The notes below the pieces were generated by a model. It made no database searches. It had not been told where the DNA came from and worked only from the letters and a program-made list of their open reading frames with translations. This document shows, piece by piece, positions 2,640 through 13,040 of a stretch of DNA of 64,000 bases. The stretch is from Lysobacteraceae bacterium (GTDB lineage: Bacteria; Pseudomonadota; Gammaproteobacteria; Xanthomonadales; Xanthomonadaceae). The translations under genes were made by a program, and so were the position numbers. Where the stretch lies: contig QBLY01000003.1 in assembly GCA_003241895.1 (NCBI GenBank), positions 150,053 through 214,052 on the forward strand, read 5' to 3'. The first letter of the stretch is position 1, and each line of letters opens with the position of its first letter.

Positions 2640-3539
2640 TCAATCGTCGTCGGGCCACTTGGGCGCAGCCGGTTTGGCGGGTTTTGCCACCGGCCCGGGC
2701 AGCGCGGCGACGGCCGCCCACACCTTCATGGCGTCCACCGTTGCAGCAACGTCGTGAACGCGGATCAGGCGCGCGCCGTACTCGGCGGACAGAACCGCGG
2801 CGGCCACCGAGGCATGCACGCGCTCGTCCACCGCGCGGCCGGTCAAGTCGCCCAGGCTGCGTTTGCGCGACAGCCCCGCCAGCACGGGCACGCCCAGGTC
2901 GCTGAAGCGACCCAACTGCCGCAGCAGCAGCAGGTTGTGCTGCAGGGTCTTGCCGAAGCCGAAGCCCGGGTCGACCACCAGGTTCTTCTTGGCAATGCCC
3001 GCCATTTCGCAGGCGAACAGGCGCTCGGCCAGGAATCGGTGCACGTCGGCCACCACGTCGCCATAGCGCGGGTCGTCCTGCATTGCGCCCGGCTCGCCCA
3101 GCATGTGCATCAGCACCACCGGCACGCCGGCGGCGGCGGCGGCATCAAGTGCGCCTTCGCGGCGCAGCGCGTAAACGTCGTTGATCAGGCCGGCGCCGGC
3201 GGCGACGGCGGCGCGCATCACTTCCGGTTTCGAAGTATCTACCGAGACAACCACCGTGGTCTCGCGCGCCAACCGCTCGATCACGGGAATCACGCGCGCC
3301 AGCTCTTCGTCGAGGCTGATCGCCTCGGCGCCGGGCCGGGTCGATTCACCGCCCACGTCCAGCACGTCGGCGCCTTCGTCGGCCAGTCGCCTTCCATGCG
3401 CCACCGCCGCCTCCAGACTGCCGTGCTGGCCACCGTCGGAAAACGAATCGGGCGTGACGTTGACGATGCCCACCACGTTCGGACGGTCGAGCCTAAGCAC
3501 GCGGCCGGCGCAATCGAGCTGCGGGACGGTATCGAACAT
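2640..3539 (-). CDS. folP: dihydropteroate synthase
   Basis: VVGIVNVTPDSFSDGG, ADVLDVGGESTRPGA, NDVYALR, VDPGFGFGKTLQHNLLLLRQL, GLSRKRSLG. Confidence 0.96.
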   Translation of the reverse strand: MFDTVPQLDCAGRVLRLDRPNVVGIVNVTPDSFSDGGQHGSLEAAVAHGRRLADEGADVLDVGGESTRPGAEAISLDEELARVIPVIERLARETTVVVSVDTSKPEVMRAAVAAGAGLINDVYALRREGALDAAAAAGVPVVLMHMLGEPGAMQDDPRYGDVVADVHRFLAERLFACEMAGIAKKNLVVDPGFGFGKTLQHNLLLLRQLGRFSDLGVPVLAGLSRKRSLGDLTGRAVDERVHASVAAAVLSAEYGARLIRVHDVAATVDAMKVWAAVAALPGPVAKPAKPAAPKWPDDD

Positions 3540-3591: not shown

Positions 3592-4365
3592 TTACGGCAA
3601 TACGTCGATCACGGGCCAGCCCAGGTCGCGGTTGACGGGCGATTCGCCGCTGCCGATGAACTCGAACAGTTCGCTCAGCGGCACCAGGCCGACGCGATGC
3701 AGTGTGAGTCGAATGCGCACCTGGCTCTGGTCGGGGCTCATCCACTGAACATCGGTGATCGGGGCTCCAGCGCCCTGCAGCGCCGCGGCGCCCGAGCGAA
3801 CGCGCAGCCCGCCCAGCTGGCGGCCGGCCAGCGTGAACGTGCGCTCCTCGCCCATGCGCGCGCCCTCGCTGGATTCGGCCTGCCGGGGGTTGAGGAAGCC
3901 GTGGCTGGCGATCACATGCAGCGTAGCCTTTTCGTCACTGCGCCCGATTCCGAACAGCGGCGATCGCTGCATCACCAACGTATAGGCGCCCGGCTGTTCT
4001 ATCGCGGGCAGTCGCACCGACACGAAGGCACCACCCGCCGCCGGTACGCAGTGCGCGGAGGGTGGGATGCCGTTACCCCCGACCGACAGCAGCCTACCGC
4101 CCGTGACCACCGCACCGTCGGCCGACACGGCGCTTGCTGACACCACGAACTCCAAGCCTTCGCCACGCACGCCCACCACGCATGGCACTCCGGCGTAACA
4201 AACTTCTGGCGCACGTCGGCCGGGACGCGGCTCCAAGTCGGGGCACAGACGCTGCGACTGCACGGCCGCAGTCGCGGATGCCGCGGTGAGCGCCGATACG
4301 GCGGCCAGTGCGTGCAGCGTGGCCCTGGGCAGAACACTGCTCACGACGCCGGCTCGCCAGGGCAC
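3592..4365 (-). CDS. secreted protein of unknown function, paralog of the adjacent 4412-5344 product
   Basis: In-frame GTG at 4365 followed by a hydrophobic leader (VVSSVLPRATLHALAAVSALTAASATAA). LCPDLE...APEVCYAGVPC... and C-terminal FEFIGSGESPVNRDLGWPVIDVLP align with the neighbour. The ORF-track extension to 4530 overlaps the neighbour and is probably not translated. Confidence 0.65.
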   Translation of the reverse strand: MPWRAGVVSSVLPRATLHALAAVSALTAASATAAVQSQRLCPDLEPRPGRRAPEVCYAGVPCVVGVRGEGLEFVVSASAVSADGAVVTGGRLLSVGGNGIPPSAHCVPAAGGAFVSVRLPAIEQPGAYTLVMQRSPLFGIGRSDEKATLHVIASHGFLNPRQAESSEGARMGEERTFTLAGRQLGGLRVRSGAAALQGAGAPITDVQWMSPDQSQVRIRLTLHRVGLVPLSELFEFIGSGESPVNRDLGWPVIDVLP

Positions 4366-4411
4366 ACAACGTACCGTCCGCGACCTGCAGGCCCGTCCAA
4401 GCGCGATCCGA

Positions 4412-5344
4412 TCAAGGCTGCACTTCGATGCGCGGCCAGCCAAAATCGTTGTTGATGGCGGGCGTGACAACGATACCCGGCGACGGCGGAACAAACTCGA
4501 AATAGTCTTCCAGATTGACGGTGCCGGCACGCAGCACGTTCACCCGGATCCGCACGCTGTCGAAACGCGCGGAGACGATTTCGAACGGCTTCGGGTCGAA
4601 AGTAATCTGCTGTGCGTTGACCGGCAGCGTGGCTGCCGTCCCATTCCCCACGCGCGCGGCCATACGCCCTGCCAGCGTGCCCGATCCAGGCGCTGGCGCA
4701 GCGCCCGGCGATGGGCTGCTGACTGCTGCCGGAAACGGCTGGCGCACGCCCGCCTTCACGCGCAGCTGTTGCAAGCCGCGCCCAGCGATGTCCAGCTCTC
4801 GCACTTGGCCGGCGGGCGCCGTGAAGGGCTGGCGACCCGAGGCCGATAGATTGAGGAAGTTGCCGCCGTTGCGGATTTCCAGCGGGATGGAGTCGCTGTG
4901 GCGGTTTAACCCGATATTGCCGATGCGCTTGACTTCAAGAATGTGGTTCCCAGGCGTAACGATGTCCTCGAGGCGTATCGCCACGTAGCCCTGTCGGGTC
5001 TTGCTGGCAGGAGGGACGCACTGTTCGCGCGCACGGATGTCGGCACCGGTCTCGGCGATGGAGACACGGGTTTTTGCACCGGGATAGACGGGGCCGTCAG
5101 TGTGGAGCAGCACAGTGTCGGTCAGGTCGAGCCAATGGCCGCGAAGGCCGGCGATGCAGTCGAAGCCGGTGTAGCAGACGTCGGGAATCGTTCGGCCCGC
5201 TTCGATCTGCACGCTGTTGCCCAATCGGGGGCAGACGTTGTAATCATTCAGTCCGGCAAAGGCTGGAGTTCCCATCAATAGACTGGCACACAACGCCAAC
5301 GCCAGACGGGGCGTGGTCGGCATCAAGGTTGTCATCGGATTCAC
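4412..5344 (-). CDS. secreted protein of unknown function, paralog of the 3592-4365 product
   Basis: GTG start at 5344; signal peptide ...PRLALALCASLLMGTPAFA; VCPRLG...IPDVCYTGFDC... and C-terminal YFEFVPPSPGIVVTPAINNDFGWPRIEVQP. Confidence 0.7.
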   Translation of the reverse strand: MNPMTTLMPTTPRLALALCASLLMGTPAFAGLNDYNVCPRLGNSVQIEAGRTIPDVCYTGFDCIAGLRGHWLDLTDTVLLHTDGPVYPGAKTRVSIAETGADIRAREQCVPPASKTRQGYVAIRLEDIVTPGNHILEVKRIGNIGLNRHSDSIPLEIRNGGNFLNLSASGRQPFTAPAGQVRELDIAGRGLQQLRVKAGVRQPFPAAVSSPSPGAAPAPGSGTLAGRMAARVGNGTAATLPVNAQQITFDPKPFEIVSARFDSVRIRVNVLRAGTVNLEDYFEFVPPSPGIVVTPAINNDFGWPRIEVQP

Positions 5345-5436
5345 TCCTTCAGACGCCGCGTGGTCTCATGCACCACCACGGCAAGGGGGTAACGCTACCG
5401 AACCCCGCCCGTACGCGAGGCCCGGCAGCGGGGGGG

Positions 5437-5973
5437 CTATTCGCAGATCTTGAGAGACGGGCGGGCGATGTTTTCCCACGGGTAGGCACCCCGCGAGCGG
5501 CTGCTGCAGCAGTGCTGGGTGTCGTTGCTATGCACGCCGGAGCCGCGGTTTGCGCAATATTTCGAGCGCACCACGTCGCCGGTGTTATTGACGAGGTTGG
5601 TTTCTATCATCCGGGTCCACTGGTAACCCCAGATCGCGCGGTCGACGGACTTGGTCCAGGCCAGGGTGCATGACGTGGAACTTTCGTTGCCGCCGCACAT
5701 TTTTCCGTTAGGATTGTCCGCGCAGCAGGGATCGTGCGACAGGCTGCCGCCACTGACTTTGCACAGGCCGAACCCGGCGAAATGTACGCAGAACGCGACA
5801 CGCGGCATTTGACCAATCGTCCAATTGCCGCAACCCTGCCCGGATGCGCCGAAGCAGAATTCCGGCCCTGCGGCGCGCGCCTGAGACACCGGCGCCATCG
5901 TGGCGGAAACAATCACAAGCAGGGCCAGCGCCAAGGCGCGCAGGCCGGAGTTCTTGATCAGGGAAGTCATCAT
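5437..5973 (-). CDS. cysteine-rich secreted protein of unknown function
   Basis: Signal peptide MMTSLIKNSGLRALALALLVIVSATMAPVSQARA then 12 Cys in the mature part, including two CC pairs (DPCCADN, QHCCSSR). Confidence 0.65.
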   Translation of the reverse strand: MMTSLIKNSGLRALALALLVIVSATMAPVSQARAAGPEFCFGASGQGCGNWTIGQMPRVAFCVHFAGFGLCKVSGGSLSHDPCCADNPNGKMCGGNESSTSCTLAWTKSVDRAIWGYQWTRMIETNLVNNTGDVVRSKYCANRGSGVHSNDTQHCCSSRSRGAYPWENIARPSLKICE

Positions 5974-5981
5974 CGTCTCCT

Positions 5982-6461
5982 TCAGCGGGTGCGACGGACG
6001 GTGGAGCCGTCCGAGGCGGTCAGGGTGTTGTCATCCACCATCGCAAAGCTCAAGCGCGTCATCGCGGTTTCCTTGCTTTCCTCCGGATCACCAGGGGCGC
6101 GCTCCAGCACGAGGGTGAACACCTTTCCATCGCCCTCCACCACCGCATAACGGCCGCTGGCCAGGGGCTGCTTTTCCTGGTCCTTGAACACCGAACTGCG
6201 AACGCGCGTTCCGTAGCTGCCGTCGGCGCGGAACTCGATCAGGGTGGTCACCGTCTCATTGGTTTCCTTATCGCCCTGGCGCTCGATGCCCCAAGTGCCG
6301 AAGAGACGCTTGGCCATGTCGCCAGGCTTGGCCTGCGTCGCGCCGGATAGGGAACGCAGTTCCGGCGCTGCCTTGCCAATTTCCTGAGCAAAAGCGCCGG
6401 ACGTGACGAAGCAAACGGACAGCAGAACGCCGCAAAGCGGTCGGGTGGATCGACGGTTCAT
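5982..6461 (-). CDS. small secreted protein of unknown function (lipocalin-like character)
   Basis: Signal peptide MNRRSTRPLCGVLLSVCFVTSGAFA; LFGTWGIERQ...LIEFRADGSYGTRV...GRYAVVEGDGKVFTL. Start overlaps the upstream secretin gene stop by 4 nt. Confidence 0.6.
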   Translation of the reverse strand: MNRRSTRPLCGVLLSVCFVTSGAFAQEIGKAAPELRSLSGATQAKPGDMAKRLFGTWGIERQGDKETNETVTTLIEFRADGSYGTRVRSSVFKDQEKQPLASGRYAVVEGDGKVFTLVLERAPGDPEESKETAMTRLSFAMVDDNTLTASDGSTVRRTR

Positions 6462-8176
6462 GGGGTGCCTCCTTGGGTACGGTGGGTTACAGCGGGAACG
6501 CCGGCGCCGTCACGCGCGCTGGCGAGGAAGGTCTGCATCAGCTGGGGATCGGACAGGCCGCGAACGCGCACGTCGCCAACGGTTGCGCGCGAGAAGAAGC
6601 GTCTGCCGGCCACGCGCTCGGTGAGCGCGTCCAGGCCATGCCCGGGTTCGACCAGCGACTCCCACAGCTGCAGCAGGCGCTGCGTGGGTTCACCCCGCCG
6701 ATTGCCGGTGGCGAAGCCCACGGGCGGCGACGGCGTGACCAGGATGATCACGGAGCGCTGCCGGCGCTGGTCGGTCTTGCGGTTGAACAGCAGGTCGAGC
6801 CCCGGCACGTCGCCGAGCACGGGGACACCCGATTCGCTGCGGTCGTTGACCGATTCCGACAGGCCGCTGAGCACGAGGGTCTCGCCGAAACGAACGTCGG
6901 CCGTAGCGGCGACGTTTTGGCGGAAAGTCGCCAGCTGCTGCGAGAAACTGCCCACGCCCTGGTCGCTGAAGAAACTCCGGTCTGCCTCGACGCGGAATCG
7001 GGCACCGTCGCTACGGATTTCCGACGGAGTGATCTTCAGGCCCACGCCCACGTCGATGCGCTCAAGCTGGGCGAAGTTGACGCCGGCCACCGCCACGTTG
7101 AGCTGCTCGCCGACGAAGAACGTGGACTGCTCGCCGAGGAACGCACTCAAGCTCGGTCGCGCGATCACTTCGTACTGGCGGCGGGCGCGATTGAGGATGT
7201 TGAGGTTGTAGGTGATATCCGGGATGCGGATCAGGCGCGTGATCGATGTGGTCTCGGCGCTGCCGGACACGTCAGTGACGGTCTGCCGGTTGTGCTGGCG
7301 GCCGAACTGCAGCTGCAGCGATTCGAGCAGGTTCACGCCATAGCCCGTGGAGTTGCGCATGTCGCCCAGAATCAGGGTCACGTCCACGGTGAGCTGCTGC
7401 GGCGCGACCGCCGGCTCGCTGCTGGTGAAATCGGTGGGCGCCGGCGCGCCGTCGTCCACCACCGAGGTACGCATCAGGGCCGCGGAGCGCGCGGCCACCC
7501 AAGCGCGGTCGTCGGCGGTCAGCGCCGCCGGCGGCATTGCCAACAATTTGTCGACGGCGCCCGGGTCGTTGCCGCCCGCCGCCGACAGCACGGCCGTGCG
7601 CCAGGCGCCGGTGGACTGCGGGTCAAGCCGTCGGGCCTGTTCGGCGGCGGCGTAAGCCAGCGGCAGGTCGCCCGAAAGATAAGCTGCAGCGGCCAATCCC
7701 TCGTAAGCCCAGCCGGCGTTCGGATCCGCCATCACCGCAAGCGCGAACGCATCGGCCGCTGCCGCGGGCCGCTGCTGGCGCATCAGGTTCACGCCGGTGA
7801 GGTAGTGGGGCCAGGGCCCGGTGTCGCCCAGTCGATTGGCGGCCTCGAAGCCCGAGCCGGCCACCTCGGCCTGCGCCGGGTCGTCCTTCAGTTGGTGCGC
7901 GGCGCCAAGATAAAGATGGGCCTTCGGCGCGCGCATGTCCTGGGCCAGCCACTGCTCGGCGGCGATTCGGGCCCGGTTGGCGTCGTTTTTCTGCAGTGAC
8001 TGCAGGATGGTGGCCTCCAGCGTGCCACGATCGGCCAGGGCCGGCGCCTCGCCCCGCGGCGCCCTCGGCGTCGTGGCACAGCCCGCCAGCACCACGGCGA
8101 CCGCCAAGACCCCCGCCAGCGCGATGCCCTGCCGCGACTTCATTGCCATTGCCGCCGCTGTAGACTCATTACCCAT
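6458..8176 (-). CDS. outer-membrane lipoprotein with TPR-like N-terminus and C-terminal secretin domain
   Basis: Lipobox VVLAGCATT; TPR-like helices; secretin signature ARPSLSAFLGEQSTFFVGEQL...VGVGLKITP...GVPVLGDVPGLDLLFNRKTDQRRQRSVIILVTPSPP. True start may be an internal Met (MKSRQG...). Confidence 0.8.
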   Translation of the reverse strand: MGNESTAAAMAMKSRQGIALAGVLAVAVVLAGCATTPRAPRGEAPALADRGTLEATILQSLQKNDANRARIAAEQWLAQDMRAPKAHLYLGAAHQLKDDPAQAEVAGSGFEAANRLGDTGPWPHYLTGVNLMRQQRPAAAADAFALAVMADPNAGWAYEGLAAAAYLSGDLPLAYAAAEQARRLDPQSTGAWRTAVLSAAGGNDPGAVDKLLAMPPAALTADDRAWVAARSAALMRTSVVDDGAPAPTDFTSSEPAVAPQQLTVDVTLILGDMRNSTGYGVNLLESLQLQFGRQHNRQTVTDVSGSAETTSITRLIRIPDITYNLNILNRARRQYEVIARPSLSAFLGEQSTFFVGEQLNVAVAGVNFAQLERIDVGVGLKITPSEIRSDGARFRVEADRSFFSDQGVGSFSQQLATFRQNVAATADVRFGETLVLSGLSESVNDRSESGVPVLGDVPGLDLLFNRKTDQRRQRSVIILVTPSPPVGFATGNRRGEPTQRLLQLWESLVEPGHGLDALTERVAGRRFFSRATVGDVRVRGLSDPQLMQTFLASARDGAGVPAVTHRTQGGTP

Positions 8177-8299
8177 CTCGCCACCTCCGCTGTCTGTGAG
8201 GCACCGAAGATCGCGCCAACTGCGGCATGGGTCGTGACGGAATCCCTACTTTTTCGCTACCTTTCGCACTTCAACTAATTTCCCTGAGGAATCAGTCGC
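8177..8299. promoter_or_regulatory. divergent intergenic region between secretin operon and winged-helix kinase gene
   Basis: 123 bp between two divergent starts. No specific promoter elements assigned. Confidence 0.4.
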
Positions 8300-11035
8300 A
8301 TGGAGTCGTCTGGACACCCCGTTACGCCGCGTCGCGAACTGCGATTCCTGTTCGGGGACTGCCAACTCGACGGCCGCAGCCTGGTGCTCAGCGTCCGCGG
8401 CAGCGTGGTCAAGCTCGAACGCAAGCCGCTGGAGATGCTTCTGCACCTGCTCCAGCACGCCGGTGAAGTGGTGACCAAGCAGGAGTTGCTGGACGAGGTC
8501 TGGGCCGGCCGCATCCTCAGCGACGCCGTGCTGACCAAGACCATGGCCAGGCTGCGCCAAGCCTTGGGCGACGAGTCCCAGGTAGTGATCCGCACCGTGC
8601 ACGGCTACGGCTACCGGCTGGTGGCCGCGGTGACCGTGGAGGCCAGCGGAGTTGCCCTGTCGCCGACCCTGCCAGAGCTGGCCGTGGGCGACGCTCCGCC
8701 GCTGCGTCCGCTTTGGCGCCTGGAGCGTCGGCTGGGCAGCGGCAGCGCCGGCGATGCCTGGCTGGGTCGGCACACCAAGACCGGCGAGTCGCGCGTCTTC
8801 AAGTTCGCGCTCGACGCCGCGGGCCTGACCTCGCTCAAGCGAGAGATCACCCTCTACCGAGTGATGCAGGACAGCCTGAGCGCCCGCGACGACGTCTTGC
8901 GCCTGCTGGACTGGAACCTCGAGGAGGCCCCGCTCTACCTCGAGTCCGAATTCGCCGAACACGGCTCGCTTCTCGACTGGAGCGCGGCCCGCGGCGGGCT
9001 GGCCGCCCAGCCCCTGGCACTGCGACTGGAACTGATGGCGCAGGTGGCCGAAGCCCTGGCCGCCGCGCATTCGGTCGGCGTGCTGCACAAGGACCTCAAG
9101 CCCGGCAACGTGCTGGTGGCCGGCGACGGCGATTCGCCACATATCAAGCTGGGCGATTTCGGCAGTGGCCGACTGGTCGACTTGGCAAGGCTGGAGGCGC
9201 TGGAAATAACGCGCCTGGGCTTCACGGCGGCGCAGGCCGAGGGTGACTCGGGCGGCACGCCGCTCTACGTCGCACCCGAACTGCTGGCCGGACAGTCGCC
9301 CACCGCGCGTTCGGACATCTACGCCCTGGGCGTGATGCTCTACCACTGCGTAACCGGCGATACCCGCCGGCCCCTGGCGCCGGGCTGGGAAAGCGACATC
9401 GATGACCCCCTGCTGCGCGAAGACATCGCGGCCGCTGCCGCCGGCGATCCAGCGGCGCGCCTGGGCGATGCGGGCAGCCTGGCCAAGCGGCTGCGCACGC
9501 TGGATGCCCGCCGCGCGGAGCGCGCCGCTGAACTCACCGCCCGCGAAGAGGCCGGACGCCTGCACGAGGCCCTTGCCGTATCGCGGATCCGCCGCCGGCG
9601 CTGGGGCATCGCCTCGGCAACGCTGGCCACGGGCCTGTGCGTGGTGACCGTGCTGCTGCTGCAGGTGAGCGACGCCCAGAAGCAGGCGCGCGTGGAGGCC
9701 GACATGGCCGCCGCGGTGAACCAGTTCCTCACCGAAGACCTGTTGGCCCAGGCCAACCCACTTATTTCCGGCCGAAGCGACGTACAGGTGCGCGACTTGC
9801 TCGATTCAGCGGCGCAACAGGTCGGGAACCGTTTCAACGATCGTCCGGCCACCGAGGCTTCGGTGCGCATGGCGCTGGGCAACGCCTACCTCAACCTGGG
9901 CGAATTCGCGAAGGCACAGCGCGAACTTGAACGGGCCCTGCAGCTCGCGCAGGGCCAGACCGACAGCGACGCGATCGTGGTGAACGCCCGCTCGGACCTG
10001 GCAAAACTGCAGGCTCGATCAGGCGACGCGGTGCGGTCGCAGGAAACCCTTGCGCCGCTGCTGACGCACCCGGACACCGCAACGCGGCTGCGGGCCGGCA
10101 TCGACACCGCGTTCGCACAGTTGAGCCAGGGCGACGCCGCGGCCTCGCTTGCGCGCCTGGACGCCATCGCGCCTGAAATCGCCGCGCACTTCCAGGCAGG
10201 CAGCAGTGAAGCCATAACAACCACCGCCTACCAGGCCAATGCCCTGCGTGAACTGGGCCGCTACGACGAGGCGATCGCCAAGTACCGGGAAAGCCTGGCC
10301 GGGCGCCAGGCGCTGCACGGCGCCGGCCATATCGCCACGCTCGAGCCACTGCGCGGGCTTGGTGGCGCACTCACGCTGGCAGGTCGCCACGACGAGGCGT
10401 TGGTACCCCTGGAGGCTGCGATGACGTTGGCGCGCGACGTCTATGGCGAACGCCACGACCATACGCTGGCGATCGCCTCCGACCTGGCGCTGGTGCTGCA
10501 AAACGTCAAGCAGTTCCCACGCGCCGAGGCGCTGATGCTGTCCACGCTGGCTGCCCGCGCCGAGAGCTATGGCAAGGACTCGCCCGACTACCGCTCGCTG
10601 CTCAACAACCTGGGCGTGCTTTACGGCGAAAAGGGCGACTTCCCCCGCCAACATGAGTATCTGGCGCAAAGCTGCGCGGCCGAACACACCGCGTCCGGCG
10701 AAGATCATCCGCAAACGCTGATTTGCGACCACAACCTGGCGCGCGCCCTGGTGGACTTCGGTCGGCTGGCCGAAGCCGAATCCCTGGAGCGGCGCACGAT
10801 GGAGCGGGCGCTGCCGGTGTTCGGCCCGGAGCATGCGTTCATCGGCATCGTCGGCTACACCTACGCCAGCATCGAAGGCCAATTGGGCCGCAAGGACGCC
10901 GCAGAGCGCGGCTTCGAGGAAGCCATCACCCTGCTGGACAAGGCGTTGGGGCCTGGCAACGAACGCAGCGCCAAAGCCGTGGCGATGCGCGAGGCCATGC
11001 GCTCAGGCAAGCAAGTCCCGCCCCCGGCACCTTGA
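8300..11035 (+). CDS. winged-helix (OmpR/CadC-type) DNA-binding domain - Ser/Thr protein kinase - TM - TPR fusion protein
   Basis: N-terminus QLDGRSLVLSVRGSVVKLERKPLEMLLHLLQHAGEVVTKQELLDEVWAGRILSDAVLTKTMARLRQALGDE...VIRTVHGYGYRL (Trans_reg_C). Kinase motifs GSGSAGDAWLG, HKDLKPGNVL, LGDFGSG, YVAPELL, SDIYALGVMLY. TM WGIASATLATGLCVVTVLLLQV, then TPR repeats. Confidence 0.9.
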   Translation: MESSGHPVTPRRELRFLFGDCQLDGRSLVLSVRGSVVKLERKPLEMLLHLLQHAGEVVTKQELLDEVWAGRILSDAVLTKTMARLRQALGDESQVVIRTVHGYGYRLVAAVTVEASGVALSPTLPELAVGDAPPLRPLWRLERRLGSGSAGDAWLGRHTKTGESRVFKFALDAAGLTSLKREITLYRVMQDSLSARDDVLRLLDWNLEEAPLYLESEFAEHGSLLDWSAARGGLAAQPLALRLELMAQVAEALAAAHSVGVLHKDLKPGNVLVAGDGDSPHIKLGDFGSGRLVDLARLEALEITRLGFTAAQAEGDSGGTPLYVAPELLAGQSPTARSDIYALGVMLYHCVTGDTRRPLAPGWESDIDDPLLREDIAAAAAGDPAARLGDAGSLAKRLRTLDARRAERAAELTAREEAGRLHEALAVSRIRRRRWGIASATLATGLCVVTVLLLQVSDAQKQARVEADMAAAVNQFLTEDLLAQANPLISGRSDVQVRDLLDSAAQQVGNRFNDRPATEASVRMALGNAYLNLGEFAKAQRELERALQLAQGQTDSDAIVVNARSDLAKLQARSGDAVRSQETLAPLLTHPDTATRLRAGIDTAFAQLSQGDAAASLARLDAIAPEIAAHFQAGSSEAITTTAYQANALRELGRYDEAIAKYRESLAGRQALHGAGHIATLEPLRGLGGALTLAGRHDEALVPLEAAMTLARDVYGERHDHTLAIASDLALVLQNVKQFPRAEALMLSTLAARAESYGKDSPDYRSLLNNLGVLYGEKGDFPRQHEYLAQSCAAEHTASGEDHPQTLICDHNLARALVDFGRLAEAESLERRTMERALPVFGPEHAFIGIVGYTYASIEGQLGRKDAAERGFEEAITLLDKALGPGNERSAKAVAMREAMRSGKQVPPPAP

Positions 11036-11129: not shown

Positions 11130-13039
<1,910 letters not shown>

Positions 13040-13040
<1 letters not shown>

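Follow-up and report, generated by a model that had tools for sequence, protein, structure and literature searches.

Gene content and position of the block

The interval between ftsH and folP in the window (the whole 64,000-nucleotide stretch that was analysed) is occupied by six genes, A to F, of which A–E are read leftward and F divergently from them (Table 1). The original prediction had described five leftward genes for exported products and, 123 bp from them, a divergent gene for a winged-helix/kinase/TM/TPR protein; all six open reading frames and the 123-bp spacing of E and F were confirmed, with the start of gene A corrected. The GTG listed as its start, at 4530, overlaps B, and alignment with the ortholog of Pseudoxanthomonas composti places the start near 4344. 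The start of D shares 4 bp with the stop of E, and a gap of 8 bp separates D from C, so A–E likely form an operon. A simple promoter scan found nothing, and terminators were at the level of shuffled sequence. The G+C content of B, C, and D (0.62–0.635) is below that of the window (0.687).

Table 1. Genes and features of the block and its flanks (window coordinates)
Feature	Position	Strand	Description	Basis
folP	2640–3539	minus	flanks the block	
gene A	3592–4344	minus	exported protein of ca. 250 aa with signal peptide, paralog of B	ORF and alignment with P. composti ortholog
gene B	4412–5344	minus	exported protein, 310 aa, paralog of A	ORF
gene C	5437–5973	minus	exported protein, 178 aa, 12 conserved cysteines	ORF
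gene D	5982–6461	minus	small exported protein, 159 aa	ORF
gene E	6458–8176	minus	TPR-secretin, predicted lipoprotein, 572 aa	Pfam Secretin, TPR_2, lipobox
E–F intergenic region	8177–8299	.	imperfect 11-bp direct repeats, candidate operator	
gene F	8300–11035	plus	winged helix/Ser-Thr kinase/TM/TPR protein	Pfam Trans_reg_C, Pkinase, TPR_12
ftsH	11130–13040	minus	flanks the block	

In 23 of the 24 same-genus genomes in which folP was found, ftsH and folP are direct neighbours, the end of ftsH lying upstream of folP at a distance of 6–152 bp in the eleven congeners measured, and no block gene is present at these 23 loci. The block, which had been proposed to separate two genes adjacent in many gammaproteobacteria, is therefore regarded as an insertion in the source species. 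The break falls between the ftsH terminator and the start of folP, and no target duplication was seen there. The only congener in which ftsH was not found within 1.5 kb of folP (L047, G1003:C4) has other coding sequence upstream of folP, from which it appears that the junction may accept insertions repeatedly. Just past folP and convergent with it, at 691–2465, lie two adjacent paralogous genes for exported beta-helix-like proteins, 35% identical to each other and likewise of a G+C content (0.62–0.63) below that of the window.

Architecture of the TPR-secretin E

The product of gene E comprises a lipobox (LAGC) followed by TPRs, the secretin C-domain (residues 333–482), and a C-terminal tail, as read from an alignment of four family members and a Pfam scan. 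It matches Pfam Secretin (PF00263) at 86 bits, with a cut-off of 27.5, and also TPR_2, in agreement with its original description as a lipoprotein TPR-secretin, and it is predicted to reside in the outer membrane. The best solved-structure matches of its secretin part are GspD, RcpA, and PilQ; nevertheless, E remains well below the cut-offs of the curated families (71 of 351 bits for GspD, 45 of 284 bits for PilQ) and matches the PilW model weakly (23 bits, cut-off 154).

The domains N0, Secretin_N, and STN were found neither in E nor in seven relatives scanned, all of which share the lipobox, TPR, and secretin layout. The four other secretins of the source genome, PilQ and three GspD-like proteins, all contain Secretin_N, and three of them N0 or STN as well. 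GspC, and probably PilP, relies on N0 to bring the channel into line with the inner membrane (PMC10499894). Since the N-domains for docking to the inner membrane are missing, a stand-alone mode of action is likelier for E than that of a type II system deprived of some parts, and because a TPR lipoprotein and a secretin are joined in one chain, which also carries a tail, a self-piloted secretin is the natural reading of this protein. Among the GspD-like secretins of the source genome, a divergent one (L003, G000:C23; 292 of 351 bits), located near a contig end, adjoins a gene for a secreted protein and has no N0 match.

The source genome encodes several ATPases and platform proteins of type II secretion systems (T2SS) and type IV pili (T4P). 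When these were used as tblastn queries, they matched their own loci, which served as the positive control, and gave no match anywhere in the window, as had been claimed for secretion inner-membrane genes; similarly, no GspE/GspF-type ATPase or platform protein was matched in any of 16 neighbourhoods of the E family.

The exported partners A–D

None of the A, B, C, and D products matches a Pfam family. A and B are indeed paralogs (28% identity, E-value 6e-21 in blastp), and C has the 12 cysteines ascribed to it, all of them conserved in the P. composti ortholog; none of the 11 further genomes or records tested has this gene. D shows a weak similarity to TIGR03066, below the cut-off. No common sorting signal was identified among the partner proteins. 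The AlphaFold model of A is of low confidence (pLDDT 59) and predicts beta-sandwich domains; it matches only generic immunoglobulin folds (TM ca. 0.25), and no function is claimed on its basis. The model of C, obtained for two sequences, was unusable (pLDDT 38). The block was also considered as a defence system and this was rejected: A–E have no defence match, and F matches models of defence-system kinases through its kinase part alone.

Regulator F and the shared promoter region

F comprises an OmpR-type winged helix (Trans_reg_C, residues 35–107), a Ser/Thr kinase, a hydrophobic segment near residues 436–456, and TPRs at ca. 520–890. Its presumed topology is that of a cytoplasmic winged helix, one transmembrane segment, and a periplasmic TPR domain. 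The kinase motifs are intact and conserved in P. composti (K168, HKD 263–265, DFG 286–288, and APE 325–327). Of 200 genomes from the order, 21 encode F-like proteins, 34–44% identical apart from F itself, without E. Being found across the order in genomes devoid of E, such regulators are not tied to it, and F is a member of a general regulator class recruited to the cassette. In at least seven of the 11 F-like neighbourhoods read, the divergent gene codes for a predicted exported protein or lipoprotein.

Direct repeats spaced by 11 bp are typical of binding sites of OmpR/PhoB-type winged-helix proteins. In the E–F gap of the source genome, lag 11 is the best among lags 8–14 (raw p 0.017, 300 shuffles, seven lags compared), and it is also the best in the corresponding gaps of P. 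composti and of the F-like loci L107 and L108 (each raw p < 0.004, seven lags compared; 300 shuffles for P. composti). Of other F-like gaps, that of L105 is borderline at lag 11 (0.053), L104 has a 10-bp repeat, and L111 gives no clear signal. The 11-bp pattern supports a role of F as a local regulator and makes the gap a candidate operator. A 20-mer conserved between the two E–F gaps did not exceed the shuffled extreme, and only the 11-bp periodicity was used. The model of a regulator, a secretin, and its partners put forward in the original prediction is largely supported, including by the repeats in the gap, except that the class of F is common without E.

The loci L105, L107, and L108 share a further feature, namely that divergent exported proteins of ca. 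560–600 aa with similar mature N-termini face their F-like regulators, and in L107 and L108 the gap between the two divergent genes contains CGTTACCG repeats every 11 bp. This is a recurring regulator–target pair in the order.

Distribution of the cassette and of the TPR-secretin family

A profile of E was searched against 397 genomes of the family Xanthomonadaceae; the genome samples used here were drawn evenly and are non-exhaustive, and the first-look step scores few candidates per genome. Matches were obtained in three genomes, those of the source, P. composti, and G995, the last with a partial, divergent copy of E only and no cassette. An intact block is present in two of the 397 genomes, the source and P. 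composti, and in none of the congeners, so it is a rare insertion rather than a family-wide system, though one that does co-occur outside the strain.

The P. composti cassette keeps the order F-E-D-C-X-A and the same strands at a different chromosomal place, between a nearby gene for an S46 peptidase and the genes cinA, lexA, and recA (names assigned by sequence inspection). The co-occurrence of the six genes therefore extends to a second species with one exception: B is replaced there by X (L007, 12809–13780), whose product is also exported but does not resemble B. Protein identity between the two cassettes amounts to 69% for F, 68% for E, 58% for A, 47% for C, and 46% for D, and the overlap of E and D is 4 bp in both. 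A conserved core of E and F with partner genes that diverge or are swapped would be the usual behaviour of a secretion machine and its cargo.

Profile searches over a sample of Pseudomonadota revealed the E family in 11 of 399 genomes, in a scattered distribution. In a tblastn search against plasmids, one from Asticcacaulis sp. AND118 was found to carry a homolog that aligns with 88% of E at 38% identity. This homolog, too, lies in a run with genes for exported proteins; the regulator at the head of the run is a different one, which combines a probable N-terminal DNA-binding part (weak HTH match) with a membrane segment and TPRs. In all 15 E-family loci checked, a signal peptide or lipobox is predicted for the product of the co-directional gene adjoining E; signal peptides were called by a simple heuristic, and with five of the 15 loci from one genus the count corresponds to roughly eight independent lineages.

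The partners are unrelated between lineages, and A and B are not detectably related to those of Asticcacaulis, nor to D. One genus (L026 and L028) has partners of the tectonin beta-propeller type and, adjacent to these, an AraC-type regulator; L012, a gammaproteobacterial locus, encodes exported repeat proteins which look similar to them by inspection. In another genus (L029, L030, L031, L035, and L036) the TPR-secretin forms a trio with a pentapeptide-repeat lipoprotein and, after it, an MscS-like channel carrying a cNMP domain. The pentapeptide lipoprotein of L029 is fused to a solute-binding domain. At L033 (G624:C1), the gene after the TPR-secretin codes for an exported protein of ca. 2,900 aa, whose first part (919 residues) matches no Pfam family. 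A search over open-access text found no description of TPR-secretins, and, as expected from the original prediction, the libraries searched assign no function to homologs of the block genes. This wider TPR-secretin family is a new point beyond the regulator–secretin–partner model.

Proposed function of the cassette and alternative explanations

Our leading interpretation, which we hold with somewhat less than even confidence, is that of a horizontally acquired, self-contained cassette in which the self-piloted secretin E exports or displays the partner proteins without a dedicated motor, under the control of F. The lipid anchor and fused TPRs of E would replace a separate TPR-lipoprotein pilotin, such as TadD or PilF, and E would form an outer-membrane ring lacking the N-domains through which other secretins are joined to an inner-membrane platform. 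In the periplasm, the ring of TPRs could capture A, B, C, and perhaps D after their export by the Sec pathway and then deliver them to the cell surface or the medium. F, an inner-membrane protein whose TPR domain would face the periplasm, would sense the status of the channel or cargo and set expression by binding the 11-bp direct repeats between E and F, while its kinase might tune this control or relay a signal. The gene content, its conservation, the insertion, the domain architecture, and the exported neighbour of E at all 15 loci are observed, as is the absence of platform gene matches nearby; that E forms a pore, that the partners leave the cell through it, that F acts as a sensor, and what its kinase does are inferred. 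The partners are read as cargo because they differ by lineage and one was swapped between the two closest cassettes. A broader proposition, that TPR-secretins constitute a separate motor-free system in many Pseudomonadota, exporting interchangeable cargo encoded next to them and forming the secretin counterpart of type XI secretion, is put forward tentatively, as doubtful at present.

The export model has points against it, since it names no energy source for a route that lacks an inner-membrane motor, host motors could serve E in trans, and in some lineages the partners are lipoproteins, which could simply stay in the periplasm. Its strongest rival, rather unlikely in our estimation, takes E for a structural or sensory outer-membrane ring that, together with its partners, makes up a complex at the surface or in the periplasm, for example in adhesion or envelope sensing, monitored by F. 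The tectonin propellers and pentapeptide lipoproteins among the partners of relatives, the MscS-like channel with a cNMP domain added in one genus, and the combination of a kinase with a presumed periplasmic TPR domain in F would all suit such an assembly; on the other hand, secretin domains are otherwise known as channels, and swapping of partners would be odd for fixed structural subunits.

The next alternative, that E is an accessory secretin plugging into the T2SS or T4P machinery of the host in trans and providing a second exit with its own substrates, is unlikely. The ATPases and platform proteins encoded outside the window, as well as the three GspD-like secretins and PilQ, show that the genome has such machinery, but E has neither Secretin_N nor N0, the latter being bound by connectors of the GspC/PilP type (PMC10499894), and N-domains are equally missing from the seven relatives scanned, including members beside unrelated partners. 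Least probable is an incidental co-location in a mobile piece of a decaying secretin relic, secreted proteins, and an unrelated regulator, for which the rarity of the block and the low G+C content of B, C, and D could speak. It is already disfavoured, because the conserved order and strands at two unrelated chromosomal places, the intact reading frames at 46–69% protein identity, the shared E/D overlap, and the retention of all the cysteines of C indicate selection on the gene set.

The usual teaching presents secretins as the outer half of machines that span the envelope. If the export model is true, a family without docking domains, in which the pilotin is built in and an exported partner is supplied, would be close to the simplest secretin system described so far, and it would offer a clean setting for asking what drives transport through a secretin gate. 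With its location at different chromosomal places, a distant form on a plasmid, and varied partners and regulators, the cassette could also serve as a compact model for the acquisition of cargo by secretion modules.

Comparison with known systems

E has the C-terminal secretin domain (PF00263) in common with the secretins of T2SS, T4P, and Tad systems (GspD, PilQ, and RcpA), from which it differs by the presence of a lipid anchor and TPRs, by the lack of N0, Secretin_N, and STN, and by having no platform genes nearby. The nearest precedent for a secretin devoid of N0 is KilC of the Kil/Tad-like apparatus of Myxococcus, reported to lack this domain (PMC8460266). KilC, however, works with Tad ATPase and platform proteins, while E has no ATPase or platform genes in its vicinity and carries TPRs. 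The Tad secretin has as its pilotin the TPR lipoprotein TadD, which holds the C-terminal tail of the secretin in a groove (PMC10499894). TadD and PilF/PilW resemble E in linking a TPR lipoprotein to a secretin, but these pilotins are separate proteins, whereas in E the TPRs and the lipobox are fused to the secretin. F shares an OmpR-type winged helix, a single transmembrane segment, and a presumed periplasmic domain with one-component regulators of the ToxR/CadC type. It differs from them in having a complete Ser/Thr kinase that separates its winged helix from the membrane, and a TPR array as its outer domain.

By analogy of layout, the closest functional analogue of E is type XI secretion (DUF560/Slam, NilB, and HrpB), in which DUF560-family TPR-barrel proteins export the products of neighbouring genes, the TPR domain is fused to a single outer-membrane channel with a dedicated cargo gene beside it, and there is no dedicated inner-membrane motor (PMC8406197). 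The likeness concerns the layout only: the partner families are unrelated, and the channel domain of E is a secretin, with no DUF560 barrel in the Pfam scan, so E is not a member of type XI secretion.
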